From positions 1-36,872 of the forward strand of contig JACRLT010000035.1 of NCBI GenBank assembly GCA_016235185.1: DNA of 36,872 nt, written 5' to 3'. The translations under genes and the position numbers were made by a program. This DNA is from Candidatus Omnitrophota bacterium (GTDB lineage Bacteria > Omnitrophota > Gorgyraeia > Velamenicoccales > Velamenicoccaceae). Positions 121 through 18,881 of the stretch are shown here, one piece after another (position 1 is the stretch's first letter; every line of letters starts with the position of its first letter). The notes under the pieces were generated by a model, which saw nothing but the letters and a program-made list of their open reading frames with translations, was not told where the DNA came from and made no database searches.

Positions 121-231
121 TCATCTCCTTAATTTTGCCATTCCCAGCTTTTCTTCTTTACAAAATTAACCCCGAAGCGAGCTTCAAAATTATCAAAGAG
201 AATTTTGAAGCGCTTTCGCAAGGGGCCACTT
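121..231 (-). promoter_or_regulatory. Structured 5'-leader element, copy A (downstream of flavodiiron gene)
   Basis: On the minus strand this has the two-hairpin layout shared by five sites. The outer stem pairs 170-173 with 222-225 (CCCC/GGGG). An inner 11-bp stem pairs 181-191 with 201-211. The second hairpin pairs 161-169 with 129-137 (TTAATTTTG with CAAAATTAA) and runs into AAGGAG. It begins just after the flavodiiron stop codon. No clear reading frame follows it, so it may be an orphan copy. Confidence 0.6.
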
Positions 232-238
232 CATCTAT

Positions 239-1423
239 TTAAGCTGCTTTTACCGCTTGGACTATCACTTTAGCATAATCTTTTAATTTGCTCAACTCTT
301 CTTCGTCAGGCACATACTGCACCTCAAAAGGCGGCTCTATGATCTCTATACCAATAGCTTCAATATCCTTACGTATAGCCTTAGATGCGCCTTCAGCCCA
401 TCCATAAGAACCGAAGATGCCGGCTTTCTTGTTTTTTGGTTTCAGCCCCCTTAAATACGTCAGAAAACCGCCGACTGTCCAGAACATATCGGCATTCAAT
501 GTGGGCGAGCCCACCAAAAATACCTTCGCATCCAGTATATCGCGCACGATCTGGCTTCCGTCGCTCTTCCTGATATTGTAGATCTTGACCTCTATGTTTT
601 CAGCCGCGATCAATTCAGTCAGCCTGCGCGCCAATTCTTGCGTTGAATCCCACATCGAGTCATACACGATAACTACTTTCTGTTTGGCCTTAAAAACAGC
701 CCAGTCCATATATGCATTTATGATACGCCCCGTATTTTTTCGCCAGATAGCTCCGTGGCTGGGGCCAATGATATCTACAGCCACACCCATATTGCAGAGT
801 TCGTCAATTTTCTTGGAGATAATACTGCCCAAAGGCATCAAGATGTTTGCATAATATTTAGTCGCTTCCTCCATACAATAATCTTCGCCTATCTCGTCTG
901 CAAAACGCTGCGGGCTGGCTAAATGCTGGCCAAAAGCATCGTTCGGCAGGAGGACTTTATCCTGTTCGCAGTAGGTAAACATGCTATCGGGCCAATGCAC
1001 CATTGGAGCGGCGATAAATTTTAAAGTGCGGCTTCCCAGTGAAAGCGTATCACCGCTCTTTACGACGTTCATCTCCCTGTCTTTGATCTGATAGTGCTTG
1101 ATTAACCCTTCTCTTCCTTTTGCTGTACAGAATATCTTGGCGCCCTTGGCAACATTTAAAATATCCGGCACCGAGCCCGAATGGTCCATCTCAACATGGT
1201 TGACTATCAGGTAATCTATTTTTTCCGGAGGCACGATCTCGCGGATATGGTCCAAGAGATCTGCGGCAAAACCTTTTTTTACAGTATCGACCAAGGTTAT
1301 CTTCTCGTCGATTATCAAATAGGCATTATAGGAAGTCCCGTGCGGGGTAACATAACCGTGAAAATCCCGGACATTGTAATCAACAGCGCCAACCCAGTAA
1401 ATTTTGTTTTTTAATTCGACCAC
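239..1423 (-). CDS. Flavodiiron protein (A-type flavoprotein, O2/NO reductase)
   Basis: Flavodiiron proteins reduce O2 to water and/or NO to N2O in the cytoplasm of anaerobes, usually with electrons from rubredoxin. The 394 residues match the minimal two-domain form. An N-terminal metallo-beta-lactamase-like domain carries the diiron ligands His76, Glu78, Asp80 and His81 (HVEMDH), with later His/Asp ligands in VHWPD, NDAFGQH and GPSHG. A flavodoxin-like FMN domain follows from about 255, starting VVIVYDSMWDST. There is no fused rubredoxin, but a rubredoxin gene lies two genes upstream (2587-2745). I chose the GTG start at 1423 because AAGGAG sits 7 bases before it; the nearby ATG at 1430 is out of frame. 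A structured leader (1431-1539) ends at this Shine-Dalgarno sequence. Confidence 0.93.
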   Translation of the reverse strand: MVELKNKIYWVGAVDYNVRDFHGYVTPHGTSYNAYLIIDEKITLVDTVKKGFAADLLDHIREIVPPEKIDYLIVNHVEMDHSGSVPDILNVAKGAKIFCTAKGREGLIKHYQIKDREMNVVKSGDTLSLGSRTLKFIAAPMVHWPDSMFTYCEQDKVLLPNDAFGQHLASPQRFADEIGEDYCMEEATKYYANILMPLGSIISKKIDELCNMGVAVDIIGPSHGAIWRKNTGRIINAYMDWAVFKAKQKVVIVYDSMWDSTQELARRLTELIAAENIEVKIYNIRKSDGSQIVRDILDAKVFLVGSPTLNADMFWTVGGFLTYLRGLKPKNKKAGIFGSYGWAEGASKAIRKDIEAIGIEIIEPPFEVQYVPDEEELSKLKDYAKVIVQAVKAA

Positions 1424-1430
1424 GGTACAT

Positions 1431-1539
1431 CTCCTTGATTTTACCTATAACTGGGTATTTATTCCTCACAAAATCAACCCCGAAGCCTGCGCAGTCCGCC
1501 ACTGAATCAATGGCGGACAAGCGTTTAAGCAAGGGGTCA
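1431..1539 (-). promoter_or_regulatory. Structured 5'-leader element, copy B (flavodiiron gene)
   Basis: The outer stem pairs 1477-1481 with 1533-1537 (ACCCC/GGGGT). The inner 8-bp stem pairs 1494-1501 with 1511-1518 (GTCCGCCA/TGGCGGAC). The second hairpin pairs 1469-1477 with 1435-1443 (TTGATTTTG with TAAAATCAA, one G-T) and runs directly into AAGGAG, 7 bases before the GTG start. The inner stem is entirely different in sequence from the other copies, while its position is kept. The element begins at the stop codon of the upstream membrane-protein gene. Confidence 0.7.
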
Positions 1540-2574
1540 CTTCCCAGTGATGCGCTCTTCTACTTCGCGCATATCTTTAATGACAGGGCCATCGGGGCCA
1601 TTGAAACGGACCTGCCCCGATTCATCGGCATAAAAAATAAAACGCCCTGTCACATCAGGCTCTTTCGGCCTTGCCTCCAGGCGATAATGCTGGTCATCCG
1701 GACGGCTGTATTGATATATGTAGCCGCCTGGATGGCGAGGGCTGACCGCATCATCAATAATGGAATCTGATGCATACTTCCTTAAAACTCCGGGGTGCGC
1801 CGGATAAAATCCAAGATCGCGCTTGTAGTCCCCTGCTGCCGCTACTATAGAACTCATAGTAGCGTAAGCTGTGACATCATTGATACTGGCCATCTGCATC
1901 TTCATCTCCGGATAAAAAGAAATGATCGTCCTGTTTAGCGCAGGCCCCATCCCAACCAAGATAAAGACCAGGAGCGTAACCGGCATAACAATACCGGCAG
2001 CAATAGACCGTAAAAATCCTGCTTTGTAGGACTCGCGAAGGCCGATGATAATAATGGCCACTGACCACGCTAACGCAAAGACCCCCCCTACAAGAGGGAC
2101 GCAATAAAACAGATCCGCAGCGCTTCTATAGCAGATGACAAAAAAAGCGCCGATAAGCGCCCTATCCATACCCAGGATAAGCTTGATGCCTGTTGCTACC
2201 AGGACCACGGACACCGCAAAAACCAACAAAGGCCTCAAAAGCAAAAAAGGCGATGTAAAAATTGTGCTAGATAGCGTAGAGAGTTGTAAAGATCCTGAAA
2301 CCGGAAAGATACCCTTTGAGAAATATTTGAACCAATAAAGACTGGTAACGTCGAGGAATAATTTGATGTAACCGAGGATAAGCGCGAAGGCAACCGCCCG
2401 GATAAGGCGCCTCTTAATATCAGCGTGGCCGGCTAAAGAAAACTGCCTGAAAAAATCAACAGGCCTGAAAAGTATCTGGCCGCAAAAAGGCAGGAAAGCG
2501 CGCACACTTGCGCCAAATGTAGCCGCCTCGTCCCATGCCTGAAGCGGGTGTTTTTTTTCTTCGCCTGGGTCCAT
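1537..2574 (-). CDS. YIP1-type membrane protein with pseudopilin-like C-terminal domain
   Basis: The first ~210 residues hold about five hydrophobic segments and the FFRQF...RAVAFALILGY style of YIP1-family proteins. About 125 residues of soluble tail follow, containing DLGFYPAHPGVL, GGYIYQYSRP, YRLEARP and FYADESGQVRF. This pattern of short strand-forming motifs resembles the C-terminal part of type II secretion major pseudopilins (GspG-like). I infer a membrane-anchored protein exposing a pseudopilin-like domain; its function is unknown. I chose the ATG at 2574 over the TTG two codons earlier; no strong ribosome binding site precedes either. It follows rubredoxin by 12 bases, so it is probably in the por operon. 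Its stop codon is the first base of the leader of the next gene. Confidence 0.65.
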   Translation of the reverse strand: MDPGEEKKHPLQAWDEAATFGASVRAFLPFCGQILFRPVDFFRQFSLAGHADIKRRLIRAVAFALILGYIKLFLDVTSLYWFKYFSKGIFPVSGSLQLSTLSSTIFTSPFLLLRPLLVFAVSVVLVATGIKLILGMDRALIGAFFVICYRSAADLFYCVPLVGGVFALAWSVAIIIIGLRESYKAGFLRSIAAGIVMPVTLLVFILVGMGPALNRTIISFYPEMKMQMASINDVTAYATMSSIVAAAGDYKRDLGFYPAHPGVLRKYASDSIIDDAVSPRHPGGYIYQYSRPDDQHYRLEARPKEPDVTGRFIFYADESGQVRFNGPDGPVIKDMREVEERITGK

Positions 2575-2586
2575 TGTCAATTTATC

Positions 2587-2745
2587 TCACAACTTCTTGA
2601 AGTTGTCTTTCGTGACCCCGCATTCAGGACAGACCCATGTATCCGGGATATCTTTGAATTTTGTGCCGGGTGAGATATTCTGGGTAGGATCACCTACGGC
2701 CGGGTCATAGACATAACCACAAACCAAACATTCCCATTTTTCCAT
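2587..2745 (-). CDS. Rubredoxin
   Basis: This 52-residue protein is a canonical rubredoxin, a small one-electron carrier with a single iron bound by four cysteines. The ligands are Cys6 and Cys9 (CLVCG) and Cys39 and Cys42 (CPECG). The aromatic core (Trp4, Tyr11, Tyr13, Trp37) and the DPAVGDP loop are present. Length is typical of the family (52-54). The ATG at 2745 lies one base past the porB stop codon, so it is translationally coupled to the pyruvate:ferredoxin oxidoreductase genes. Its likely partner is the flavodiiron protein two genes downstream, for which rubredoxin is the usual electron donor. Confidence 0.97.
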
Positions 2746-2746
2746 C

Positions 2747-3622
2747 TTAGGCCTCCGCATTCAAACCATACTTCTGGATATTGTAGTCAGCGATAGCCTG
2801 GACTTGTTTGACGGCATCCGGATTTTTCAAAAGATGTTTAAAGCGGCCCTGGACTTTCAGATACTCCTCCACAGGCTTGATCTTAGCGATCTTGCGCGGG
2901 ATCAATTTGCCATATTCATATTCAAAAAGAGGGTAAAGCCCGGTCTCGACCGCGAGTTTCGCCACATCAAACGTCATATTTGATTCATGTCGCCATCCCA
3001 AAGGACACGGCACATGCATCTGGATATATTTTGGGCCTTTGATGCTCAAAGCCTTCTTGACCTTTTTTTGTACGTCCTGCGGATAACCCACGGAGGCTGT
3101 CGCGACATAAGGTATCCCATGCGCAGCAGCGATCTCTGGCATAGGCTTTTTGGGCCTAGGGTTGCCTAAAGAACCTGCCCCCGATGGCGAAGTCGTGGTA
3201 TTGGTCAGCGTCGGAGTCAAACCGCTGCGCTGAATACCTGTATTCATATATGCCTCGTTGTCGTAACAAACGTAGAGGACATCATGGCCTCTTTCAAACA
3301 TTCCGGAGATCGCCTGCAGGCCGATATCAGCTGTACCGCCATCGCCGGCCTGGGCGATGACATTAATAGCATCCTTCTTACCTAAATACTTTAAGCCTGC
3401 CTCGATGCCGGAGGCAACAGCCGAACAATTCTCGAACAACGAATGGATCCACGGCACGCACCATGCGCTCTCCGGATACTTGGTCGAAAAAACCTCAAGG
3501 CAACCCGTATTATTGGCGATCATTGTATTTTTTCCGGCTGTGTCAATTACAAGGCGCGCGCCTACTGCCTGGCCGCAACCCGCACACGCCGTATGGCCCG
3601 GTTTAAAAAGTGTCTGCGTCAT
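2747..3622 (-). CDS. porB: Pyruvate:ferredoxin oxidoreductase, beta subunit
   Basis: The beta subunit binds thiamine diphosphate and, with the alpha subunit, oxidatively decarboxylates pyruvate to acetyl-CoA while reducing ferredoxin. The N-terminal HTACAGCGQ carries cluster-ligand cysteines typical of PorB. The thiamine-diphosphate motif begins at GDGG in [12 protein letters not shown] and continues to [10 protein letters not shown] with the metal-binding Asn. The 291 residues are normal for this subunit. The start overlaps the porA stop by one base (TAATG). It belongs to a four-gene set, C-D-A-B, transcribed right to left. A related 2-oxoacid substrate cannot be excluded from sequence alone, but the alpha-subunit motifs favour pyruvate. 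Confidence 0.93.
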
Positions 3623-4803
3623 TATTTCGCCTCCGCTAATAATTCCTTCTTTAATCCTATAAATTCACAATCAACTTGTTTACCTGACAGGCATTCATAA
3701 ACTTCTTGGATGGATTGGAGCGTTATATCTCTTCCGCCCAGCCCAATAACAAAACCGCTGACCTTCGGTGCCTTTGCGCCCATGGAAGACACTGCGGCGC
3801 TCAAATCCGTATATAGCGGGCCAAAACCGCCCAAAGAAATACTTTTATCTACAACGGCCACTTCGCGTGCGCGGCTTAAAGCTTTCACTATTTCATTTTT
3901 AGGAAAAGGCCTATAGCTCGCGATCTTCAAAAGGCCAGCTTTTTTACCTTTACTCCTGAACTCATCAACGCTGTCACGGATAGTCCCGCACACAGATCCC
4001 ATGGCTACAAATACCTGCTCGGCGTCTTCTAAGTGATAGCCTTCGATAAGGCCGTTGCCTTCGCCCCTCTTGAATTGTCTCTTAAACTGTGCGGCGACTT
4101 CAGGGATGATGGTCAAAAGCTCTTGATGCGTCTGTTGCACCATATAACGGATCTCGATGTAATAATCCGGATCAGCCAAATACCCCATCGTCAGAGGATT
4201 ATCAACATCCAGCTTATACGTCGTAGAGTAAGGCGTGACGAATTTATCCACTTCTTCCTGCGACGGCATATCCACTACTTCCATGCCGTGCGTCAGGATA
4301 AAACCGTCCATGTTGACCATGACCGGCAACATTACGCGCGGGTCTTCGCCTATCCTGTACGCCTGCAAGTGCAGGTCAACTGCCTCCTGGATCGTCTCGG
4401 CGAACAAAAGCACCCACCCGGAATCACGTACTGTCATTACATCCTGCTGGTCATTCCAGATATTAATAGGGGCGGATACCGCGCGATTAGCAGTGGTCAT
4501 GACAACAGGCAGACGCAGGCCCGCAATATTAAAAACAACTTCTGCCATTAATAGCAGCCCTTGAGAGCTGGTCGCGGTATATGTGCGTACGCCGGTCGCT
4601 TGAGCGCCTAAAACAACAGAGGCTGCTGAATGTTCACTTTCGACATTGACGAACTGCGCGTTCAATTCTTTGTCCGCTACCATCTGCGCCAGGCCTTCTA
4701 CGATATGTGTTTGAGGCGTAATCGGATAGGCTGATACAACGCCTGGCCGGCACCTCTTTACTATCTCGGCAATAGCATGCGATCCTTCGACGAACTGTTT
4801 CAT
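3622..4803 (-). CDS. porA: Pyruvate:ferredoxin oxidoreductase, alpha subunit
   Basis: This is the alpha subunit, supplying the pyrimidine-binding and transketolase C-terminal-like domains. Recognisable motifs are AYPITPQTHI near residue 25, the ESEHSAASV segment, TATSSQGL, and the MTTANRAVSAPINIWNDQQD loop. I moved the start inward to the ATG at 4803, giving MKQFVEG and 393 residues: this produces an ATGA overlap with the porD stop and matches the usual PorA N-terminus. The longer reading frame to 4869 would add 22 non-conserved residues encoded inside porD. Confidence 0.93.
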   Translation of the reverse strand: MKQFVEGSHAIAEIVKRCRPGVVSAYPITPQTHIVEGLAQMVADKELNAQFVNVESEHSAASVVLGAQATGVRTYTATSSQGLLLMAEVVFNIAGLRLPVVMTTANRAVSAPINIWNDQQDVMTVRDSGWVLLFAETIQEAVDLHLQAYRIGEDPRVMLPVMVNMDGFILTHGMEVVDMPSQEEVDKFVTPYSTTYKLDVDNPLTMGYLADPDYYIEIRYMVQQTHQELLTIIPEVAAQFKRQFKRGEGNGLIEGYHLEDAEQVFVAMGSVCGTIRDSVDEFRSKGKKAGLLKIASYRPFPKNEIVKALSRAREVAVVDKSISLGGFGPLYTDLSAAVSSMGAKAPKVSGFVIGLGGRDITLQSIQEVYECLSGKQVDCEFIGLKKELLAEAK

Positions 4804-5072
4804 TTTTGGTCCCCCTCTTCCATTTCGCTGATCATTTCTATATCTTTTTTCGGGCATATCGCCGCGCAATTACCGCATCCCTTGCAATACGCATAATCGC
4901 ATTTAAAGGTATTTTTGCCTTCGCCGCTTATGATACCCTCGGGACATGTATAAATGCACATACGGCAGGCTATACAATTCTTTTGTAAAAACTTGGGCTT
5001 TGTTTCCGTGCGCCAAGAACCTGTCTTATTTGCTTGACTTGAGCCCGGTTTGCACGTTAAATGTCCTATCAT
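4800..5072 (-). CDS. porD: Pyruvate:ferredoxin oxidoreductase, delta subunit (2[4Fe-4S] ferredoxin)
   Basis: This 90-residue protein is the ferredoxin-like subunit that moves electrons out of the enzyme. It has two Cys-x2-Cys-x2-Cys-x3-Cys-type clusters: CIACRMCIYTCPEG and CKGCGNCAAICPKK. The N-terminal ~25 residues, with GSWRTETKP, match the usual PorD lead-in. It sits 11 bases after porC and overlaps porA by four bases. Confidence 0.93.
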   Translation of the reverse strand: MIGHLTCKPGSSQANKTGSWRTETKPKFLQKNCIACRMCIYTCPEGIISGEGKNTFKCDYAYCKGCGNCAAICPKKDIEMISEMEEGDQK

Positions 5073-5083
5073 TTATCCACCTC

Positions 5084-5647
5084 TTAATTTTTGCTGTTTT
5101 TGACGAACTCATAGCCTTTTTTAACGGCTTCGGCATTCATATCAACGATCTTCTGGCCCTTGTCCCCGAAACGCTCGACGATAGCCTTGACCATGTCTTC
5201 TACCTTTAGCTCACCTGTCGCAGCTGCATAAGCCCCCAAAAGGACGGTATTGCTCAAGAGCGTCTTACCGCCTGTGATCTCCATAGAGATCTTATTAGCG
5301 GGCACAACAAAAAGCTTCTGCTTGCCGCGAGGTTCAGGTATTTCCATTCCTTCTCTCTCGTTGACGATGGCCGTGCCGTTGTCTTTAAAACCCACATAAC
5401 AGTCAAAACCGCGCATCAGTGTCGCGTCCACGACAATAAGGTAATCCGGGTTGTAGACCTGGCTTCTTAAACGTACAGGCTTATCATCAATGCGGACAAA
5501 CGCATTCATGGGTGCACCCATGCGAGCCGCCCCAAAATGCGGAAACGCATACGGGTACTGGCCTTTTAAAAAGTACGCGTAGCCCAAGATGCTGGCTGTC
5601 GTAATAGCACCCTGGCCAGCCCGTGCATGAATCCTTATTTCTTTCAT
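5084..5647 (-). CDS. porC: Pyruvate:ferredoxin oxidoreductase, gamma subunit
   Basis: This is the first gene of the por operon, 187 residues, the normal size for the gamma subunit. Conserved features are IRIHARAGQGAITTASILGYA at the N-terminus, FGAARMGAP near residue 40, RLRSQVYNPDYLIVVD, and the ITGGKTLLSNTVLLGA segment. The ATG at 5647 is preceded by GAGAGG. A consensus-like promoter (5760-5788) and a structured leader (5658-5732) lie upstream, so the whole por operon appears to be under this leader. Confidence 0.93.
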   Translation of the reverse strand: MKEIRIHARAGQGAITTASILGYAYFLKGQYPYAFPHFGAARMGAPMNAFVRIDDKPVRLRSQVYNPDYLIVVDATLMRGFDCYVGFKDNGTAIVNEREGMEIPEPRGKQKLFVVPANKISMEITGGKTLLSNTVLLGAYAAATGELKVEDMVKAIVERFGDKGQKIVDMNAEAVKKGYEFVKNSKN

Positions 5648-5657
5648 CTATTGCCTC

Positions 5658-5732
5658 TCAATTTCCCGCTGAATCTTTTGTGTGAAATTGACCCCGAGCC
5701 TTTATCAGCGCTTTTCTTAAGCGAGGGGTCAA
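5658..5732 (-). promoter_or_regulatory. Structured 5'-leader element, copy C (por operon)
   Basis: This is the most divergent copy, yet it keeps the fold. The outer stem pairs 5688-5695 with 5725-5732 (TTGACCCC/GGGGTCAA, 8 bp). The inner stem pairs 5709-5713 with 5719-5723. The second hairpin pairs 5684-5691 with 5658-5665 (TCAATTTC/GAAATTGA) and abuts GAGAGG. Positions 5688-5691 belong to both stems, so the full outer stem and the second hairpin cannot form together. This gives a ready-made switch for exposing the ribosome binding site. Confidence 0.65.
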
Positions 5733-5759
5733 AATTAGATTTTAAAAAAACGAGACCCT

Positions 5760-9310: not shown

Positions 9311-10219
9311 TTAAGACCCCGACTGATACAAGTAGCGGCTTACACCTAAAACCGATTTAGCACCTTCTCCGGCGGCTACGATGATCTGCTTCTCCGGGAC
9401 ATCAGTTACATCACCCGCAGCAAAAATACCCGGCATATTTGTACGGTTGAGATTATCTACGATGATCTCGCCATTATTATTTTTTGCGACGAAATCGACA
9501 ATATTCGAATTCGGAATAGAGCCGATCTCAACAAAAACACCCTGGACCTTAAGCTCATTGGCAACGCCGTTCTGCTCAAATTTAATACCTTCCACAAATT
9601 GCGCACCAAATATCTCTTTAGTCACTGCGCTGTTGAAGACTTTGACATTTTTGGCTGCCTGGACTTTATCGCGCATGATCGGATCGCCGCCCAACTCCGG
9701 ATTGATATTGATCAGGTACACGTAAGAGGCGATATGGATCAACTGCAAAGTCGCATCCAAAGCGGAGTTAGCCCCACCTATTACCACAACGTTTTTTTTG
9801 GAAAACAGCGGGCCGTCGCACGTCGCGCAATAACTGACGCCCTTGTTCCTTAAAGGTTCCTCGCCTTTGACATCAAGCCAACGCGGCCTTCGGCCGGACG
9901 CCACTATGACAGTTTTCGCAGAATAAGCAGCCTTTTTTGTTTCAACAACAAAATGACCTTCTTTCGCCTGCAGTATCCGCTCAACTGGCTCGTCTTTCTT
10001 GAGCCCGACGTTAAACTGCTTAAGATGCTCTTCAAATTTTGCTACAAGCTCCGGGCCTGTAATGAACTGATATCCCGTATAATTCTCGACATCGGAGCTT
10101 AGTAACGTCTGGCCCCCGACATCCTGGGTCACAAGCAGAAAATCTATTTTTTTTCTGGCCGCATACACCGCAGCAGTTATGCCCGCGGGCCCGGCCCCGA
10201 CTATGATAAGCTCGTACAT
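9311..10219 (-). CDS. trxB: Thioredoxin-disulfide reductase
   Basis: This FAD-dependent NAD(P)H enzyme reduces thioredoxin- or glutaredoxin-like proteins in the cytoplasm. The N-terminal FAD motif GAGPAGITAAVYAARK, the redox-active CATC in SYCATCDGPLF, the second nucleotide-binding motif VVIGGANSALDATLQL and the C-terminal GIFAAGDVTD are all present. Length (302) is typical. The NAD(P) loop reads GGANSA, so cofactor preference is uncertain. It shares its first base with the end of the glutaredoxin gene, implying that the neighbouring CPYC protein is its substrate. Confidence 0.93.
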   Translation of the reverse strand: MYELIIVGAGPAGITAAVYAARKKIDFLLVTQDVGGQTLLSSDVENYTGYQFITGPELVAKFEEHLKQFNVGLKKDEPVERILQAKEGHFVVETKKAAYSAKTVIVASGRRPRWLDVKGEEPLRNKGVSYCATCDGPLFSKKNVVVIGGANSALDATLQLIHIASYVYLININPELGGDPIMRDKVQAAKNVKVFNSAVTKEIFGAQFVEGIKFEQNGVANELKVQGVFVEIGSIPNSNIVDFVAKNNNGEIIVDNLNRTNMPGIFAAGDVTDVPEKQIIVAAGEGAKSVLGVSRYLYQSGS

Positions 10220-10455
10220 CAGCCAAGCCCTAGCTTACTGTCTATTTTCTCTTGGTCAAAACCCACCATAACATCGCCGTCTATCGAAATAACCGGCACG
10301 CCCATCTGGCCGGAGACCCTAATCATCTCGGCCAACCCGGCTTCGTCTACGGAAACATCAATGTTTTCAAATAAGATATTCTTTTCTTTCAGGTAATTTT
10401 TAACCCTGATACAGTAGGGGCATGTTGGCGTAGAATAAACTTTGATCTTTGCCAT
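10219..10455 (-). CDS. Glutaredoxin-like (NrdH-type) thiol carrier
   Basis: A 78-residue single-domain glutaredoxin fold with the active site Cys12-Pro-Tyr-Cys15 and the GVPVISIDGDVMVGFD segment containing the cis-Pro and a C-terminal helix. Size and adjacency to thioredoxin reductase point to an NrdH/Grx-like carrier reduced directly by TrxB. It heads the thiol operon. The ATG at 10455 follows AAGGAGG by four bases, and that site is the 3' edge of structured leader D. Confidence 0.9.
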   Translation of the reverse strand: MAKIKVYSTPTCPYCIRVKNYLKEKNILFENIDVSVDEAGLAEMIRVSGQMGVPVISIDGDVMVGFDQEKIDSKLGLG

Positions 10456-10464
10456 ATCGCCTCC

Positions 10465-10567
10465 TTAATTTTGTATATTAGTAGGTATTTTTCCCCTACA
10501 AAATTAATCCCGATGAGTGTGTCAAAATTATCTAAAGAAAATTTTGACATATATTACGAATCGGGAT
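10465..10567 (-). promoter_or_regulatory. Structured 5'-leader element, copy D (glutaredoxin operon)
   Basis: The outer stem pairs 10507-10514 with 10560-10567 (ATCCCGAT/ATCGGGAT, perfect 8 bp). The inner stem pairs 10520-10529 with 10540-10549 (10 bp). The second hairpin pairs 10497-10507 with 10465-10475 (TTAATTTTGTA/TACAAAATTAA, perfect 11 bp) and overlaps the first bases of AAGGAGG. It follows its own promoter, so the element is transcribed as the first ~115 bases of the message. Confidence 0.75.
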
Positions 10568-10589
10568 AGCCGCCTCTTTAATTTTATAT

Positions 10590-12970: not shown

Positions 12971-13850
12971 AACTATATTTCTTCACCATATGGTGCGGGT
13001 GGTAGGATTCTTTGGCCTGGCGCAGGCCCGGCACACCCAGGTCCTGTTCGCGGTTAACATAGGTGTAGCGCCCGGCTTCGTTACTTATGAAGATCTGGTT
13101 GATCGCCTGATAAATGCCTATGTGCTTGCCGTTCGCCTTCTCTACATGCACGACGAATGTATCAGGGTTTAGTTCCTCGCCTAAAGTTACTGCCTCCACT
13201 TTGCCGTTTATCTCAATCATGCCGCCTGTTATCCCTAACTCATCCCTGTTCCAAAGCATCTGCCTGACGGCTTCTCTTTCGGCTATAAGGCCTTCAGCCC
13301 GCTGGCAATCCTTGGCCAGACACCACTCCTCCTCAAAAGATAAACATGCCCCGACATTAGCCCTGGTTATTTTTTTATATTCAAAAGAATTATTTTCCTT
13401 AAAACGTTTGATAAAATTCCTCTTGGCGTCAAAGGCCTCGCCTTTCAATTCAGCGAGGTCGCGCGTCAGATAAACATAATCAAAATTGTTCTTGTCCTCT
13501 TCCAGGCGCACCGCTGCTTCATCCGCAAATAACTTTGCAGTATGTTCGGGCACGCGCACAAACCTCGCATTTCTTCCCCTTAAAGCAAAAACATCTAAGA
13601 TGGCCTTCTTTTTTTTAGATGGCTCACCAACGGGATCAAATATATCCAGAGGCTGGCCGTCTTTTACAGACACGGCCAGTATGCAATCATTGAAGCGGCA
13701 AAGGCAAAACTTATACGCCTGTTTCCATGCAAAAAGATTGGTAAAGGTGAACTCTGATATCTCCGGCGGATGCTGTTTAAAAAGCCGTTCAAATATTCCC
13801 TTGTCGCCTAATGCCAACGGCCTCATATCAGGAAATGCGGGAATGTTCAT
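12954..13850 (-). CDS. DUF2156 family protein (phosphatidylglycerol lysyltransferase C-terminal-like)
   Basis: About 298 residues in two GNAT-like halves, as in the DUF2156/LPG synthetase C-terminal family. Characteristic pieces are EFTFTNLFAWKQAYKF early, DYVYLTRDLAELKGEAFDAKRNFIKRFKE centrally, and VHVEKAN...GIYQAINQIF...YVNREQDLGVPGLRQAKESYHP at the end. Relatives transfer aminoacyl groups, but many stand-alone members are uncharacterised. I start it at the ATG at 13850, which overlaps the permease stop (ATGA). The reading frame extends to 14024, but the extra residues are encoded inside the permease gene. Confidence 0.88.
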   Translation of the reverse strand: MNIPAFPDMRPLALGDKGIFERLFKQHPPEISEFTFTNLFAWKQAYKFCLCRFNDCILAVSVKDGQPLDIFDPVGEPSKKKKAILDVFALRGRNARFVRVPEHTAKLFADEAAVRLEEDKNNFDYVYLTRDLAELKGEAFDAKRNFIKRFKENNSFEYKKITRANVGACLSFEEEWCLAKDCQRAEGLIAEREAVRQMLWNRDELGITGGMIEINGKVEAVTLGEELNPDTFVVHVEKANGKHIGIYQAINQIFISNEAGRYTYVNREQDLGVPGLRQAKESYHPHHMVKKYSLVYSL

Positions 13851-14635
13851 TTTAACAGCCTCTTTTTCATCATTGCGATAGCGGCAAAAGCGCAGAAAAA
13901 AGCGATCAGGATAAAAACGATCGTGTCTTTTAAAATACTCAAAGGCATGCTCCCTGCAGCAAGGGCGCGGGTGCTTGAAACCAGGAATGTCAACGGCAGG
14001 CACCAGGCCACCGTTTGAGCCCATTGCGGCAATCCGGACAAAGGAAAAAATACACCGCTAAAAAGGAACATGGGCGTGACAAATAAAAAAACCGGAAAAT
14101 TAAACATCTCGATATTTTTAACCATGGCCGTAAAACACATCCCAAGGGCGCTAAAAGCCATCCCGGCAAAAAATGAAATAGGAAGTATCAATAAGGCTTG
14201 CGGCAGGCTCAATAAGCCGAAAAACCCCACTACAACGAACATGATAGTGCCGGCAAAAAACGCTTTTGTAGCTCCCCAGACGATCTCGCCAAAGACCACG
14301 TCTTCGAGCACAAGCGGTGTCGACAGTATAGCGTCGTAGGTCTTCTGAAAATACATGCGCACAAAAGAAGCATAGGTCGTTTCAAAAAAACCGTGGTTCA
14401 TGACTGCAGTAGCTATAAGGCCGGGGGCTATAAACTCTAAGTACGATACAGGCCTGCCCGCGTAGGTAATATCAGGGACCAAACCCCCTAGACCCCAGCC
14501 GAAAGCCAACAAGTACAAGAGAGGCTCCAATAAAGGCGGGATAAAATTCACCTTCCACGTCGCCAGGTACACGTCGAAGTTCCTCTGCCATACACGCCAC
14601 GCTCTCCAACTTATATTCCTTAAAATATTATCCAT
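13847..14635 (-). CDS. ABC-2 type transporter permease
   Basis: A 262-residue membrane protein with about six membrane segments and the ABC-2 signature: YLEFIAPGLIATAVMNHGFFETTYASFVRM, then a central GAT-KAFF helix and FLFSGVFFPLSGLPQW. These proteins pair with a DrrA/NodI-type ATPase to export lipids, polysaccharides or drugs. The cognate ATPase gene is immediately upstream (14688-15620), with a 41-base hairpin between them. Substrate is unknown; nearby acyltransferases make a lipid plausible, as inference. Confidence 0.9.
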   Translation of the reverse strand: MDNILRNISWRAWRVWQRNFDVYLATWKVNFIPPLLEPLLYLLAFGWGLGGLVPDITYAGRPVSYLEFIAPGLIATAVMNHGFFETTYASFVRMYFQKTYDAILSTPLVLEDVVFGEIVWGATKAFFAGTIMFVVVGFFGLLSLPQALLILPISFFAGMAFSALGMCFTAMVKNIEMFNFPVFLFVTPMFLFSGVFFPLSGLPQWAQTVAWCLPLTFLVSSTRALAAGSMPLSILKDTIVFILIAFFCAFAAIAMMKKRLLK

Positions 14636-14641
14636 TCTTCT

Positions 14642-14682
14642 CGAGGTCCGACCTCGACAATCGGGGCCGAGGTCGGACCTCG
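14642..14682. repeat. Perfect 15-bp inverted repeat, copy 1 (CGAGGTCCGACCTCG family)
   Basis: Arms 14642-14656 and 14668-14682 are perfectly complementary, separated by an 11-base loop ending TCGGGGC; each arm is itself nearly palindromic. It lies between the ATPase and permease genes, six bases before the permease ATG. There is no T-tract on the coding strand. A second copy is at 29399-29439. Confidence 0.85.
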
Positions 14683-14687
14683 CCTTT

Positions 14688-15620
14688 CTATTCTCTTAGT
14701 TCTCTGCCTGTCAACTTAAGGAACACATCTTCCAGATTCGCCATGCGCAAGGTAGAGATCCCGTGGCCAAACTTACTCGAAATTTCCTCAAAGGCCTGCG
14801 GCCCATGCTGGCTATAGACAAAGAAATGCGTAAGGGTTTTTTCATAGGCCAGGCCTTTGTCCTTAAGATAACCTTCGATGCCGGGGCTGCCGGAATATAT
14901 CTCGATAACATGCGAAGTCACAGCCTGGCGTATAAGCTCTTTCGGAGAGCCGGAAACAATGATCTTCCCCTTGTCCATGATAACGATGCGGTCGCATAAA
15001 TGCGCTGCTTCATCCATGTAATGCGTGGTCAAAACTACGGTAGTGCCTTCTTTTTTCAAGCGCATTACGCTCTCCCAGACCTGGTGCCTGGCTTGAGGGT
15101 CAAGGCCCGTTGTCGGCTCATCCAATATCAAAAGATCGGGCGAATTAACAAGGGACCTGGCTATCATAAGGCGCCTCTTCATGCCTCCGGAGAGCTCGTC
15201 AATGGCGCTCTTTCTTTTTTGGTATAATCCCACAAAGTGCAGGAGTTCTTCGCAGCGCGCCTTTGCATCTTTACCCACGATATCAAAGTAACGCGCAAAG
15301 ACGCGCAGATTGTCTTCAACGGTCAGATCAGGGTCTAGATTATTCTCTTGCTGGCAGACGCCTATGCGAGCCTTAATAAGGCGCGGCTCTTTTTGGGCCT
15401 CTCGGCCCAAAACCTCCAGGTACCCTGAACTAGGCTCAATAAAACAAGATACCATACGCACAGTGGTCGTCTTGCCGGCGCCATTCGGGCCCAGGAACCC
15501 GAAACACTCTTCTTTAAAAACAGAAAAATCTATTGCGTCTACGGCAAGACAATCCCGGAAGGCCTTTGTCAACCCTTTGGCCTTAACAACAGCAGATAGG
15601 GACACTTTCTCTTGTTCCAT
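14688..15620 (-). CDS. ABC transporter ATP-binding protein (DrrA/NodI-type)
   Basis: The 310-residue ATPase carries Walker A GPNGAGKTT, the Q-loop region CQQENNLDPDLTV, signature LSGGMKRR, Walker B LLILDEPTTGLD and the H-loop TTHYMDEAAHLCD, then a ~90-residue C-terminal extension common in NodI/DrrA-type exporters. I start at the ATG at 15620, preceded by GGAGGAGG with a 9-base gap. The longer frame to 15650 would overlap the previous gene. It works with the permease at 13847-14635. Confidence 0.92.
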   Translation of the reverse strand: MEQEKVSLSAVVKAKGLTKAFRDCLAVDAIDFSVFKEECFGFLGPNGAGKTTTVRMVSCFIEPSSGYLEVLGREAQKEPRLIKARIGVCQQENNLDPDLTVEDNLRVFARYFDIVGKDAKARCEELLHFVGLYQKRKSAIDELSGGMKRRLMIARSLVNSPDLLILDEPTTGLDPQARHQVWESVMRLKKEGTTVVLTTHYMDEAAHLCDRIVIMDKGKIIVSGSPKELIRQAVTSHVIEIYSGSPGIEGYLKDKGLAYEKTLTHFFVYSQHGPQAFEEISSKFGHGISTLRMANLEDVFLKLTGRELRE

Positions 15621-15622
15621 CT

Positions 15623-16102
15623 CTAAAGGCCTCCTCCGCACTCCGGACACTGGCTTTCGATAAAAACAAGCGATTTTACGATATCATCGAAAGAAGGCAT
15701 GTCGGAGACCTCTTTTGCGGTGTACTGGAAAAATATCTCGCCGAACCTGTCAGTTATAAAAAGCGCTGCTATTTCTTCACCCTTTTCAAAAGAGAGGAAT
15801 TTTGCAAAAACTTCTCTTTTCTCATCGGACAAAATACAATAAGAAAGCCTGTTTTTCCTGTAGAACGACTCGATCTCCGTTAAAGGCAAAGGGCAGACAA
15901 CAGACATCTCGGCGTTCTGCTCTTTCAATCTTGCGTATGCATCTTCGGCTTTTAACAGGAATGCGGCATCGGGAAGGCTAACAAAAAAAATGACGAGATT
16001 TTTCTTCCTCTTAAATTCTAAAATGTCGAATATCTGTCCCTCTCGGCACGCAAGATGGAAAAGAGGCATCAAACTACGGTCATCTAAGCGCGATGTGGCC
16101 AT
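15623..16102 (-). CDS. Redoxin-like protein lacking a peroxidatic cysteine
   Basis: A 159-residue protein whose pattern resembles the AhpC/TSA redoxin fold: LMPLFHLACREGQIFDILEFKRKKNLVIFFV at the start, then CPLPLTEIESFYRKNRLSYCILSDEK and ALFITDRFGEIFFQ. The position after the first core strand, where peroxiredoxins have a catalytic Cys, reads SLPDAAF and has none. A CPEC motif (Cys152, Cys155) lies at the extreme C-terminus and could bind metal or be redox active. It overlaps olsA by 19 bases. Catalytic activity as a peroxiredoxin seems unlikely; function is unknown. Confidence 0.6.
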   Translation of the reverse strand: MATSRLDDRSLMPLFHLACREGQIFDILEFKRKKNLVIFFVSLPDAAFLLKAEDAYARLKEQNAEMSVVCPLPLTEIESFYRKNRLSYCILSDEKREVFAKFLSFEKGEEIAALFITDRFGEIFFQYTAKEVSDMPSFDDIVKSLVFIESQCPECGGGL

Positions 16103-16914
16103 ATGCCTCCCTGCACTGCTTCATATGCCAATTCACAAACTCGCTTACGTAAGCCGCCGCGGTCGCCTTCAGTTTCCGGGCTGATAACAGGATGGATCCC
16201 GACCTCGACGTCAAGCGCCGAGCAGGACAAAAGCCTGACAAGATGATCGGCGAATGTCATATCGCCATACCAGTAGATCCTGTCCCTGTTTTGTTTGTTT
16301 ACCGGCTCCCCGTCAATAGAAACATAAACAATGCTTACCGGAACAACAGGCGCGCCTGCGGCGAGCGGTGCTTCAAAAAAAGCCGTTTTAAAAGGCAAAA
16401 GGCTTTCTCCGTCCGAAGATGTCCCTTCAGGGAAAAAAAGCACATTAACGCCGCCATTTAACGTATCTGCTATGGTGCCGATGTATTCGGATATATGATT
16501 TTTTCTGTTACGGTCTATATAAAGTGTGCCGGAAAAATCGCTCATCAAGCCGATCAAAGGCCAATCTTTTAATTCGCTCTTGCTTACATAAATAATAGGG
16601 AACAGCGCACCCAATACAAATCCATCGACATAGCTTGAATGGTTACTTACGATAAACATCCCCTTGTCGAGTTTGGGACCCCGAGGGCTGACACTCTTGG
16701 TCTTAATGCGGATATTAATGATCCTGATAAGGCAAAGATTGAAAAGATGGATAAGGCGGGCCGAAAGCCGCCTTTTGGCAACGGGTTTTAAAAAAATAAA
16801 GGCGGCGGAAACGCAGAGGACAGTAAAAAAATAGAACAAGAAACAAATAACTATGGCTATAGATTTAACCAGGCATCTTATGATCCGCAGTAAAGCCGAA
16901 CAGCATAATTTCAT
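16084..16914 (-). CDS. PlsC-family O-acyltransferase, OlsA-like
   Basis: A 276-residue 1-acyl-glycerol-3-phosphate acyltransferase-type enzyme. It has a hydrophobic N-terminal segment (about 19-42), then the HX4D catalytic motif NHSSYVDGF (His92, Asp97), the substrate motif FPEGTSSDGE and the GAPVVPVSIVYV strand. The start overlaps the end of an OlsB-like gene by four bases. This pairing is the usual arrangement for ornithine lipid synthesis, where OlsB forms 3-hydroxyacyl-ornithine and OlsA adds the second acyl chain. A role in phosphatidic acid synthesis is the alternative. Confidence 0.85.
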   Translation of the reverse strand: MKLCCSALLRIIRCLVKSIAIVICFLFYFFTVLCVSAAFIFLKPVAKRRLSARLIHLFNLCLIRIINIRIKTKSVSPRGPKLDKGMFIVSNHSSYVDGFVLGALFPIIYVSKSELKDWPLIGLMSDFSGTLYIDRNRKNHISEYIGTIADTLNGGVNVLFFPEGTSSDGESLLPFKTAFFEAPLAAGAPVVPVSIVYVSIDGEPVNKQNRDRIYWYGDMTFADHLVRLLSCSALDVEVGIHPVISPETEGDRGGLRKRVCELAYEAVQGGIWPHRA

Positions 16915-17669
16915 CGCAAAGGCACATTGTGGACGCGGAAACGCCTCAAGTAACTGTCAGCTATTCGGCTAACTTCCAAAAGCATGAAAAAATCAGCGGT
17001 ACCAAACTCTGGGTCTAATGCCGGCTCGCCGCAGACAAAGGCCCCTATTTTTATATAGGACCGGACCAGCGACGGCAATTTTAATAGGACTTTTCTCTCC
17101 TCTCCAACCAGAGAAACCCTGTCTGATAACCCGGGCACACGGGCGCTTTCCCTGGGATAAACCCTTAATTCCGAAGGAGCGAAATGGTCCTTCTTCATGA
17201 GCGTATAAACGCTTGATATTTCAGATGGGTCCATCGTATAAAGGCTTGGACAACCGATTATGTAGCATACGCGATAATCCTCCACATATGCCAATATCCT
17301 CTGCCATAATAAATGGAGTATGGAATTGCTGCGGTAATCTTTATGCACACAGGAACGCCCCATCTCTAAGATCTCGCCCTTAACCTTTTTAATATTGCTT
17401 GGGTCAAACTCATTTTCTGAATAAAATCGGCCGCCGGCTTCCAGGCGTGAACGTAACAAGAGCCTGTAGGTCCCGATAGTAAGGCCTTTTTCCTTATCAA
17501 TGATCAGCACATGATCGCAAATAGGGTCATACTCGTCACGGTCCAGGCCATCCTCATGCGCGGCCGCAAGGCCTTTTTTTAACTCGAGATTAAAGACCTC
17601 GTAGCGCAGGCGCTGCGCTGATTCCACCTCTTGGGGATTTTGGGCCAGCTTGATCAGAAAATCAGACAT
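16911..17669 (-). CDS. OlsB-like ornithine N-acyltransferase (GNAT)
   Basis: The 252-residue protein matches the OlsB/hemolysin-type GNAT acyltransferases that move a hydroxyacyl chain from ACP to the amino group of ornithine. Diagnostic segments are QRLRYEVFNLEL near residue 20, DPICDHVLIID, TIGTYRLLLRSR, the EMGRSCVHKDYRS motif, LLWQRILAYVED and IIGCPSLYTMDP. I start it at the ATG at 17669, five bases after the previous stop; the reading frame runs to 17843 but that part is encoded inside the upstream gene. Ornithine as substrate is inferred from family and from the adjacent OlsA-like gene; other amino acids (Gly, Gln, Lys) are possible. Confidence 0.85.
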   Translation of the reverse strand: MSDFLIKLAQNPQEVESAQRLRYEVFNLELKKGLAAAHEDGLDRDEYDPICDHVLIIDKEKGLTIGTYRLLLRSRLEAGGRFYSENEFDPSNIKKVKGEILEMGRSCVHKDYRSNSILHLLWQRILAYVEDYRVCYIIGCPSLYTMDPSEISSVYTLMKKDHFAPSELRVYPRESARVPGLSDRVSLVGEERKVLLKLPSLVRSYIKIGAFVCGEPALDPEFGTADFFMLLEVSRIADSYLRRFRVHNVPLR

Positions 17670-17673
17670 GATG

Positions 17674-18177
17674 TTAAAACTTAGGCAACCAGCGTGGTGT
17701 CTTTTGGAGGTAAGAAACGTACTCGTCACCGAAGCGCCGCGTAAGCGCCCCCTCTTCAATAAGTACAAAAAGATGCATGATAATAAAAATAATAACGGCA
17801 TAGATAAAAATACCGACAGAACCCAATAAGACGGAATTACCAAAAAGAAACAAAACCGTCCCTAATACCATGGGATTGCGCACAAATCTATAAGGCCCCT
17901 TGATGACAAGTTTTTTCGGATGGGCAAAAGGAAGCGGCGTGCCCTTGCCCTCTTTGATAAAAAGCATGACGCACCAGACAGCCAAGGCATACCCAAGGCA
18001 ATTGAGGATGGCGCCCAGCCAGCGGACCGGCTTTGCGCCTAAAAAAACCAAATACGAGTCCACGAACTTATGGATGAGATAAGGAAAACCTATCCAGATA
18101 CACATAATAAAAGTGCCGCCGATAAAAAAAGTCTTTAAGGCGTTCGCACGCTCTTGTTTATCTTTGATATTTATCAT
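17674..18177 (-). CDS. Isoprenylcysteine carboxyl/phospholipid methyltransferase-like membrane protein
   Basis: A 167-residue integral membrane protein with four to five membrane segments. The C-terminal half shows the ICMT/PEMT signature: KKLVIKGPYRFVRNPMVLGT followed by EEGALTRRFGDEYVSYLQKTPRWLP. Such enzymes methylate lipids or prenylated groups with S-adenosylmethionine. It leads a run of lipid genes (OlsB-like, OlsA-like), so a lipid substrate is a fair inference. The ATG at 18177 follows AAGGA by 7 bases. A rho-independent terminator of the cold-shock gene ends only about 13 bases upstream, leaving no room for a promoter. Confidence 0.8.
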   Translation of the reverse strand: MINIKDKQERANALKTFFIGGTFIMCIWIGFPYLIHKFVDSYLVFLGAKPVRWLGAILNCLGYALAVWCVMLFIKEGKGTPLPFAHPKKLVIKGPYRFVRNPMVLGTVLFLFGNSVLLGSVGIFIYAVIIFIIMHLFVLIEEGALTRRFGDEYVSYLQKTPRWLPKF

Positions 18178-18190
18178 AAATGTGTCCTTG

Positions 18191-18241
18191 TGAAACAAAA
18201 CCCCGCACTTACAACGAGACCATTACATCATAAGTGCGGGG
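18191..18241 (-). terminator. Intrinsic terminator of the cold-shock gene
   Basis: A perfect 11-bp stem (18231-18241 with 18201-18211, CCCCGCACTTA/TAAGTGCGGGG) with a 19-base loop is followed on the minus strand by TTTTGTTTCA. It starts 12 bases after the cold-shock stop codon and ends against the ribosome binding site of the next gene. Confidence 0.88.
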
Positions 18242-18253
18242 AGCGATTTTTAA

Positions 18254-18454
18254 CTAGGCCTTGACTACGTTCGTAGCCTGCTCGCCCTTTGGGCCCTGGG
18301 TGATCTCAAATTCGACCGCCTGCCCTTCCTCCAGGGAACGATAACCCTCGCCCTGGATCGCGGTATGATGGACGAATATGTCTTTGCCTTCATCTGTACT
18401 GATAAAACCGTACCCCTTTTGATTATTGAACCACTTCACTTTACCTCTTGCCAT
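18254..18454 (-). CDS. Cold-shock-domain protein
   Basis: A 66-residue single cold-shock domain that binds single-stranded RNA or DNA and acts as an RNA chaperone. RNP1 (KGYGFIS) and RNP2 (DIFVHHT) motifs are intact, as is the N-terminal [11 protein letters not shown]. The ATG at 18454 follows GGGGAGG. The longer frame to 18511 would translate through a stable hairpin and lacks family support. It has its own terminator (18191-18241) and an unusual structured leader (18471-18522). Confidence 0.96.
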
Positions 18455-18470
18455 CTTTTTCCTCCCCTTA

Positions 18471-18522
18471 TGGTGCAATATGTTAAGAAAAACCGCAAGG
18501 CGTTGCACCACGCCTTGCGGTT
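18471..18522 (-). promoter_or_regulatory. Hairpin with predicted pseudoknot in the cold-shock gene leader
   Basis: On the minus strand a perfect 12-bp stem (18511-18522 with 18491-18502, AACCGCAAGGCG/CGCCTTGCGGTT) encloses an 8-base loop TGGTGCAA (18503-18510). All eight loop bases are complementary to TTGCACCA (18471-18478), 12 bases downstream and directly against TAAGGGGAGG, the ribosome binding site. The stem is followed by TTTTT, so it could also act as an intrinsic terminator. Confidence 0.75.
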
Positions 18523-18540
18523 AAAGTTCACAAATACCTG

Positions 18541-18570
18541 ATTCTAAGATACTTCTTAAAACTTGTGTAA
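18541..18570 (-). promoter_or_regulatory. Candidate promoter of the cold-shock gene
   Basis: TTACAC (18565-18570) and TAGAAT (18541-18546) are spaced by 18 bases on the minus strand, predicting a start near 18534 and a leader of about 80 bases that contains the whole hairpin/pseudoknot. Confidence 0.5.
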
Positions 18571-18579
18571 TAATCCATA

Positions 18580-18738
18580 TTACTTCTTATCTCTGATCTC
18601 CTTTAGAATCTTGATCATCACGCGCTGGCGCACCAACATCACCAAAAGGCACGTAAAAAGCATGAGGACAAAAATGATCTTAATAGTGAACAATAGATAC
18701 AAATTCTGCTGCATCGAAAAATGCATCCCTGGACACAT
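18580..18738 (-). CDS. Small single-span membrane protein, 52 residues
   Basis: This short gene starts MCPGMHFSMQQNL, has one hydrophobic helix (about residues 13-37, YLLFTIKIIFVLMLFTCLLV), and ends in a basic tail, RQRVMIKILKEIRDKK. I accept it as real because AAGGAGG lies four bases before the ATG and structured leader E ends exactly at that site. Three residues of the first five (Cys2, Met1, Met5) plus His6 could bind metal, but this is speculative. I do not recognise a family. It lies between the cyclophilin and cold-shock genes. Confidence 0.72.
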   Translation of the reverse strand: MCPGMHFSMQQNLYLLFTIKIIFVLMLFTCLLVMLVRQRVMIKILKEIRDKK

Positions 18739-18747
18739 ACGACCTCC

Positions 18748-18845
18748 TTGATTTTGCCCTATACCGGTTTTTTACCTTACAAAATCAACTCCGAAGCCTA
18801 TCGCAAAAATATCGTAGAGATTTTTGTGATGTTCAGGCAAGGAGT
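18748..18845 (-). promoter_or_regulatory. Structured 5'-leader element, copy E (small membrane protein)
   Basis: The outer stem pairs 18788-18792 with 18841-18845 (ACTCC/GGAGT), extended by GCCT/AGGC (18796-18799 with 18835-18838). The inner stem pairs 18802-18810 with 18820-18828 (9 bp, one G-T). The second hairpin pairs 18780-18788 with 18748-18756 (TTGATTTTG/CAAAATCAA, perfect 9 bp) and overlaps AAGGAGG. Compared with copy B, the third outer-stem pair is T-A instead of C-G, a compensatory change. Confidence 0.72.
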
Positions 18846-18881
18846 AGGCCTCAATTCCTCTTTTTGCCTATATTGGGTTTT

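Follow-up and report, generated by a model that had tools for sequence, protein, structure and literature searches.

Does a structure that recurs along a chromosome serve the genes that follow it, or only its own spread? This question is raised by the 36,872-nucleotide contig JACRLT010000035.1 of a Candidatus Omnitrophota bacterium (assembly GCA_016235185.1), hereafter the window, which carries five copies of an element made of two adjacent hairpins, all on the minus strand (Table 1). A sequence-only reading of this DNA had described them as leaders with matched changes in their stem arms, and had proposed an RNA that controls translation start, perhaps by binding a ligand. All the arms quoted there are present in the window, and changes in one arm are matched in the other. 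We favour, with a probability of roughly one half, a dispersed and dispensable cis-acting intercistronic element that would act at the start of the next gene. The element runs in the sense direction, its edges are flush with start sites, its pairing is kept, few broken copies occur among those found, and copies turn over between genomes.

The source genome (G000; 1.79 Mb assembled in 55 contigs, the window being contig C28) was compared with other members of its family (G001 to G007, of which G001 belongs to the same genus) and with genomes from other families of its class, including G021, G022, G031, G054 and G055. Two covariance models were used. R1 (27 seeds, 17 pairs) includes the Shine-Dalgarno columns and so leans towards copies flush with a Shine-Dalgarno sequence; R2 leaves these bases out and has the five window copies among its seeds, so that the independent evidence comes from the remaining family members. 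An unfiltered R2 search of both strands of the whole window returned the five copies (E = 7e-14, 1.3e-13, 2e-11, 1.5e-10 and 2e-4) and no sixth, with one further match at chance level (E = 0.15). Outside eight window proteins searched against Pfam, gene names are by-eye readings of protein starts.

A covarying two-hairpin element at gene starts

Stem P1 (ACTCC/GGAGT) leads through a small internal loop with a conserved T and C to stem P2 (GCTTA/TAAGC), which is followed by a bulge with a conserved C and by an inner hairpin. The second hairpin, P3 (TTRATTTTG/CAAAATYAA), is joined to P1 without a linker and ends flush with the next Shine-Dalgarno sequence, ATG or tRNA. Predicted mean pairing probabilities are 0.60-0.72 for P1 and 0.63-0.70 for P2.

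Covariation in these stems is very strong, both in the source genome and in its relatives. In alignment A2 (the 27 seeds, aligned with MAFFT without use of structure), 98.0% of the cells are paired and 8 of 17 pairs have changed on both sides; none of 500 shuffles reached its paired cells, double changes or covariation score, and the number of further pair types was not above the shuffles (335 of 500 reach it). Alignment A3, made of 96 distinct G000 rows fitted to the model, has 97.5% paired cells, 14 of 17 pairs changed on both sides and 190 double-changed cells, and alignment A4 (89 distinct rows from relatives, also fitted to the model) has 97.8%, 17 of 17 and 213, with 0 of 500 shuffles reaching either on any measure. 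Paired cells, double changes and covariation score also exceed all slid controls in the three alignments. The unpaired positions T11, C21, T136 and C138 of A3 are 95-99% conserved. At most one of the 17 core pairs is broken in 90 of 96 distinct G000 copies and in 86 of 89 copies from relatives, in a count that takes G-U as paired, sets gaps aside and draws on a model search that misses badly decayed copies.

The inner hairpin is exchangeable. At least four unrelated kinds occur genome-wide in G000, which bears out the claim that the inner stem is replaced completely: 28 of the 96 rows are of type AAAAT..CGATATTTT, 22 of type CCGCCA, 20 of type CCCCACCGTTTTG, 15 of type GTAAATTT, and 11 are others. 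Inner modules differ between G000 and G003 at junctions that both share (e.g., C20:7623 and C2:67889). None of 90 rows from relatives (35 of them from G003) contains the CCGCCA or CCCCACCG modules, which occur in 22 and 20 of the 96 G000 rows. Judging by this distribution, the two modules are probably newer arrivals in older elements. One inner module has 22 matches in the G000 genome, 21 of which fall in listed elements. A second palindromic insert (TCAGCC..GGCTGA or TCCGCC..GGCGGA type) was also observed within the 5' arm of P3 at L049 (C29:53646, C29:54449), L142 (C9:121) and L145 (C2:29269), where the P3 arms are still complementary around the insert.

When 150 of 1,045 candidates were scored in G000, R1 found at least 95 places with E <= 0.001, of which 83 score 59 bits or higher. 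Three places lie beyond these and were found with R1 on selected DNA, namely copy 3 of the window (short and divergent; 39.6 bits), C3:29497-29582 and C3:37081-37169; the partial scoring and these additions make 95 a lower bound, although C10:6 and C46:7 are identical contig ends and possibly one locus. In a search of 59 genomes with up to 63 candidates scored in each, R1 matches were found in 24 (G000 included), with none among the candidates scored in the other 35. Family members carry at least 60 (G003), 56 (G004), 51 (G006), 47 (G005), 13 (G007) and 7 (G001) matches, and G002 carries none among its candidates scored; other families of the class include G054 (at least 33), G021 (at least 31) and G031 (at least 25), plus others. 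In a draw of 145 phylum members, G000 among them, with 25 candidates scored in each, 25 genomes gave matches, all in the class of G000; the search does not show what share of the remaining 120 lies outside that class, so a restriction to the class is not established. The element is thus distributed through the taxonomic family of G000 and is thinner in other families of its class. In G022 and G055, which belong to another family, its members have by eye the common layout ACTCCTTGCTTAAAC - hairpin - TTAAGCTTCGGAGTTAATTC - variable hairpin - TCATTAAGGAG. Tandem copies were found in G000, G004 and G006, and one exact core pattern had no match in viral contigs.

Rfam gave no match over the whole window at curated gathering scores, and a relaxed search of four copy-bearing loci (7,381 bases) gave scores far below gathering, mostly from miRNA models on palindromes. 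Among the matches listed in a search of the open-access literature, no description of the element was found. In the available part of PMC10066038 the single mention of an RNA motif is an Rfam annotation step, and PMC2267715, as far as available, shows structured intergenic repeat families to be a known kind. Within that kind the element looks undescribed, in agreement with the earlier impression that no known class has this layout.

The element is oriented towards the gene that follows it. In 56 of 86 G000 copies a sense open reading frame (ORF) of 100 aa or longer begins 0-45 nt downstream of P3, whereas such a frame runs outward from the opposite end in 9 of 86; the same test in relatives gives 55 of 87 versus 3 of 87. 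At the 3' edge, 73 of the 96 distinct G000 rows are flush with a Shine-Dalgarno sequence, 19 with an ATG and 4 with neither, and the 89 rows from relatives divide into 76, 7 and 6, the Shine-Dalgarno call resting on a broad motif list that G-rich tRNA starts would pass too. The claim that the second hairpin always ends at a Shine-Dalgarno sequence is right for the five window copies and too broad genome-wide, where about one in five ends at an ATG. All 19 flush ATGs among the 95 G000 places open ORFs of at least 83 aa. The 4 nt that precede the 3' arm of P3 contain GG in 15 of 19 rows with a flush ATG (5 of 7 in relatives), versus 30 of 73 rows with a flush Shine-Dalgarno sequence (30 of 76), which points to a Shine-Dalgarno-like AGG within P3, some 8-9 nt from the ATG.

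On the upstream side, a same-strand ORF ends within 150 nt in 88 of 96 copies examined; its stop codon overlaps the first P1 base in 10 of them, lies at 0-12 nt in 47, at 13-60 nt in 17 and further away in 14. A crude caller (greedy longest ORFs) placed the upstream neighbour of 95 copies on the same strand in 90 cases, on the opposite strand in 4 and found none in 1, the downstream figures being 66, 22 and 7; among these 22, inspection by eye shows many short or shadowed genes and tRNAs missed by the caller. For 68 of the 95 copies, automatic detection gives an ORF of 40 aa or more with its start within 45 nt. By eye, the other 27 comprise 11 with a flush ATG, one IF3-like ATT start, three tRNAs, six copies before a repeated contig-end sequence, one at a contig end, one before a tandem copy and four with no assigned start (C35:6815, C46:27732, C7:8368 and C2:29269). 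The three tRNAs (Leu, Tyr and Ala), which are among 14 found by ARAGORN in 60 loci scanned, start on the base after P3. The downstream genes are varied by eye, including ribosomal proteins, gyrA, IF3, SecD and many more.

Gain and loss at orthologous junctions

Junctions were compared by eye unless otherwise stated. At the copy 5 junction the element is present in G000 and G003 (R1 also finds the G003 copy), and the G001 spacer is merely CAATAAAAAAGGAGGCTG; P3 shows a paired change here, from TTGATTTTG/CAAAATCAA in G000 to TTGGTTTTG/TAAAACCAA in G003. The copy 1 junction has no element in G001 and a degenerate one in G003. Among these three genomes, copies 2 and 4 occur in G000 only; copy 3 has a diverged relative in G001, uncalled by the models, and none in G003. 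Ahead of gyrA, an ATG-flush element was seen in six of the seven genomes with a readable gyrA start (G000, G003, G004, G005, G006 and G007); G001 has no element there, and in G002 the gene itself was not found. At E <= 1e-4, R1 calls the gyrA-flush element only in G000, G003 and G006, and it is irregular in G004 and G007. The S8|L6 and thrS|IF3|bL35 junctions carry, depending on the genome, diverged elements, remnants, a single flush hairpin or nothing. Nine of the 30 G003 copies with known flanks (37 listed) lie at the same junction as a G000 copy, seven of them on both sides, and 21 do not. Some sites therefore hold old copies with compensatory change, and at others copies have been gained and lost; gene conversion between copies could be an alternative source of the paired changes.

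The start codon of the IF3-like gene was observed separately (L115:1720, with orthologues L176-L186). Its first aligned codon is ATT or ATC in 11 of 13 further genomes, the exceptions being G031 and G022, where the start of the match may differ from that of the gene. A strong GGAGG lies ahead of these starts in most genomes, whether the element is present or not.

Proposed action and rival explanations

If the element acts in cis, the two hairpins would fold in the mRNA and probably stack on each other, as no base separates P1 from P3. Two-hairpin antitermination RNAs (put, of phage HK022) are also adjacent hairpins with almost no linker that act in cis; they stand at operon heads, whereas the present element lies at start sites inside operons. 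The two hairpins would occupy nearly all the RNA from the upstream stop codon to the next start, looping out the spacer and leaving the start site single-stranded at the base of P3, near the terminating ribosome and insulated from upstream sequence. In ATG-flush copies, P3 with its internal AGG would have to open before initiation; its modest predicted pairing suggests a weak, AU-rich gate on translation. Recombination or transposition may multiply the copies and swap their inner modules, and lineages may lose them, a turnover that speaks for an element useful and not essential. More tentatively, the family may represent a novel cis-acting RNA class, an intercistronic relay: it would fold up operon spacers and place the next start where the coaxial stack of the two hairpins has its base, and it would have been a mobile repeat with palindrome-accepting loops before becoming a genome-wide layer of translation control at dozens of housekeeping junctions per genome.

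Several results weigh against an action on the next start. The three copies that precede tRNAs cannot have translation as their target, so translation is not the whole story; an insulator keeping downstream RNA free of upstream pairing would cover these copies too. The mean pairing probability predicted for P3 is just 0.40-0.43, and the G003 element at the copy 5 junction is mismatched in P1 (ACTCC against GGTGT). By eye, G001 has no two-hairpin element at the junctions of copies 1, 2, 4 and 5, at thrS|IF3|bL35 or at gyrA; R1 finds one copy in 89,720 of its bases, and at least seven genome-wide. A perfect 8-bp hairpin was flush with none of 53 Shine-Dalgarno starts scanned in G001 (79.6 kb), in an insensitive scan that flags merely 2 of 19 window starts and 3 of 14 G003 starts; one single flush hairpin lies at G001 thrS|IF3, before an ATT start and outside the 53. 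Core cells with G-U versus A-C number 7 versus 13 of 1,609 in G000 and 22 versus 13 of 1,429 in relatives. In the relatives' RNase P RNA, put through alignment and folding by the same script as the elements, G-U and A-C make up 7.7% and 1.9% (20 sequences), 5.9% and 2.2% (10) or 6.5% and 2.2% (7); the elements show 2.5% and 1.1% in G000 (first 60 distinct rows) and 2.4% and 1.1% in relatives (first 55 distinct rows). By this standard the pairing is near-perfect and uses little of the G-U tolerance that selection on RNA would allow, which fits hairpin-directed copying or a role at the DNA level and opposes a purely RNA reading.

G001 cells are nearly able to do without the element. A broader rule, by which any hairpin would stand flush with the Shine-Dalgarno sequence in G001, was dropped, as this insensitive scan saw none at the 53 starts. 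Between G000 and G001, within one genus, a genome-wide element has been nearly all lost or gained, and this contrast makes the choice between a selfish and a functional element directly testable. If it does act at the next start, dozens of gene starts in one genome would share a single structured spacer, distinct both from riboswitches and from the usual intergenic repeats, and the family would show in a natural setting a dispersed repeat linked precisely to the start points of translation and of tRNAs, with palindromes nested in palindromes.

The main rival, which we regard as possible, is a selfish or neutral mobile double-hairpin repeat, comparable to repetitive extragenic palindromes (REP), miniature inverted-repeat transposable elements (MITE) or mitochondrial double hairpins. 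The hairpins would then be the DNA substrate of a recombinase, and the sense lock and flush edge would reflect the choice of insertion site together with the removal, by selection, of insertions harmful to expression. The high copy number would be explained, as would dispersed copies present or absent at orthologous sites (with short empty G001 spacers at copies 2 and 5), tandem arrangement, inner palindromes that are unlike at common G000 and G003 junctions, the two modules absent from relatives, the module almost confined to listed elements (21 of 22), the scarcity of G-U pairs and the nine matches to Y1_Tnp (PF01797) in G000. A REP- or MITE-type repeat would be expected in both orientations relative to genes; the direction is strongly locked instead, and the 3' edge is flush with a Shine-Dalgarno sequence, ATG or tRNA. 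The sequence-only reading had warned of a mobile repeat lying mostly away from gene starts: the repeat we find is indeed dispersed, gained and lost, yet its place is at gene starts. Decayed copies are also few despite divergence, and the unpaired bases are conserved in relatives too.

REP elements and bacterial interspersed mosaic elements (BIME), with their REP-associated tyrosine transposases (RAYT), are short intercistronic palindromes in many copies, for which, to our knowledge, no sense lock is expected. The present element resembles them in its many intercistronic palindromic copies and in the Y1_Tnp genes of G000, and differs in being sense-locked. Y1_Tnp has 2-5 matches in four family members and none in G002, and G001 has five matches yet few elements. 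No palindromes like the element were seen at the three Y1_Tnp loci examined (L223-L225). A RAYT link is not supported by the numbers either: across nine genomes (G006 and G007 were outside this search), genomes richer in Y1_Tnp are not consistently richer in elements.

Two published repeat families come close to the element. As described in the available parts of PMC2800124, mitochondrial double-hairpin or repetitive hairpin-forming elements are repeated intergenic single or double hairpins, some with complementary substitutions, potentially mobile and with no known adaptive function. Our element shares with them two adjacent, repeated hairpins with compensatory differences. They differ in being organellar and in occurring also within genes and rRNAs, and those parts of PMC2800124 describe neither a sense lock nor a flush start site. 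The TAACTGA direct repeats of Beggiatoaceae (PMC4679880, likewise as available) form 169 sets in one genome, mostly forward and upstream of a start codon, the largest category ending 1 nt upstream; they occur also in ribosomal protein operons with no functional pattern, and a translational role has been suggested and mobile or horizontal spread discussed. They resemble the element in copy number, in a forward orientation ending at the start site and in the variety of genes, but are presented there as plain heptamer arrays for which no structure is predicted and which overlap with the site expected for ribosome binding, whereas the element has two covarying hairpins, in most copies with a Shine-Dalgarno sequence directly after them. 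No direct heptamer repeats were found in alignment A2.

A global translational regulon is unlikely. A trans-acting RNA-binding protein would recognise the P1/P2 core and control dozens of starts together, and G001 would have lost the factor and then most of the sites. This would suit the conserved unpaired bases of the P1/P2 domain, the recurrence of the core ACTCCTTGCTTAAAC...TTAAGCTTCGGAG in two members of another family (G022 and G055), and the near-absence of the element from one genome. No candidate factor was identified, none having been looked for; the downstream genes have no theme by eye, and some copies are flush with tRNAs.

Still less probable is an RNA-processing signal, by which a cut at the base of P3 would create the 5' terminus of the mRNA or tRNA that follows. 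Flush starts are the general pattern, and the three tRNAs begin on the first base after P3; in ATG-flush copies, however, the last P3 base is the A of the ATG, so that an equivalent cut would destroy the start codon. A search of 24 genomes found RNase P RNA in 20, among them each of the seven other family members, which argues that tRNA ends do not need the element. G000 itself gave no RNase P RNA match, probably owing to incompleteness of the assembly.

Translation-controlling riboswitches and RNA thermometers place a leader hairpin at or over the start site, with a weak AU-rich helix; the element shares the start-site hairpin, with a helix predicted to be similarly weak, and departs from them in copy number, gene range, tRNA copies and exchangeable loops. 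A metabolite-binding riboswitch controlling translation start is highly improbable: the conserved structure of the leader and its core at start sites agree with it, but at least 95 copies precede protein and tRNA genes of unrelated kinds with no common pathway by eye, inner hairpins are freely replaced, and an alternative anti-Shine-Dalgarno pairing is predicted at just 0.10 and 0.01. Of the RNA proposed earlier, the covarying structure, mostly sense and at gene starts, thus stands; ligand binding is not supported, and G001 keeps the examined genes without the element.

Three further candidates were rejected. An anti-Shine-Dalgarno switch (P1 CTCCTTG complementary to CAAGGAG) conflicts with these low pairing values, with P1 changing together with its own partner and with ATG-flush copies that keep CTCCTTG (by eye) where there is no Shine-Dalgarno sequence. 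A promoter (TTGATT ... ATATAC in P3) would have, by eye and with no promoter scan run, too long and variable a spacer, and would leave the covariation unexplained. The likeness of P1/P2 to integron attC sites fails by eye at the end boxes.

The window copies and neighbouring features

The five copies and the genes behind them are listed in Table 1. The 5' edge of copy 2 is overlapped by the stop codon of an upstream 347-aa ORF without a Pfam match, and a promoter-like TTGATT...TATAAT lies upstream of copy 3 (by eye).

Table 1. Element copies in the window, with adjacent start signals and genes. Bit scores are from R2 unless stated; A and B are the letters of the sequence-only reading.
Feature	Position	Strand	Remarks
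Shine-Dalgarno-like GGAG flush with copy 1	125..128	-	sequence beyond common to five other contig ends
Copy 1 core (P1 to P3 end)	129..226	-	whole copy 121-229 (A, 121-231); stems CCCC/GGGG and TTAATTTTG/CAAAATTAA; 91.6 bits
Gene behind copy 2: flavodiiron-type protein	239..1423	-	ODP beta-lactamase and flavodoxin domains (PF19583, PF00258)
Shine-Dalgarno GGAG flush with copy 2	1431..1434	-	
Copy 2 core	1435..1537	-	whole copy 1427-1540 (B, 1431-1539); ACCCC/GGGGT and TTGATTTTG/TAAAATCAA; inner CCGCCA-type palindrome; 77.2 bits
Gene behind copy 3: pyruvate/2-oxoacid:ferredoxin oxidoreductase subunit	5084..5647	-	PF01558
Copy 3, short class	5658..5729	-	whole copy 5650-5732; TTGACCCC/GGGGTCAA and TCAATTTC/GAAATTGA; R1 39.6 bits, R2 36.1 bits
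78-aa ORF behind copy 4	10219..10455	-	glutaredoxin-like by eye
Copy 4 core	10465..10567	-	whole copy 10457-10570; ATCCCGAT/ATCGGGAT and TTAATTTTG/CAAAATTAA; 72.0 bits
52-aa ORF behind copy 5	18580..18738	-	membrane-protein-like by eye
Copy 5 core	18748..18845	-	whole copy 18740-18848; ACTCC/GGAGT and TTGATTTTG/CAAAATCAA; 90.0 bits

Six element copies lie at six contig ends (window 1-124; L023, L026, L102, L127 and L142), with the same repeated sequence flush after P3. This sequence has no ORF in the part seen, and the multi-copy unit begins exactly at the 3' edge of the element. Another palindrome, CGAGGTCCGACCTCGG...CGAGGTCGGACCTCG, occupies window positions 14641-14682 in the spacer separating two ORFs on the same strand and lies 5-6 nt ahead of the ATG that opens the ORF at 13847-14635; near-identical copies of it occur at three places in G003 (88-95%) and once in L070 of G000.

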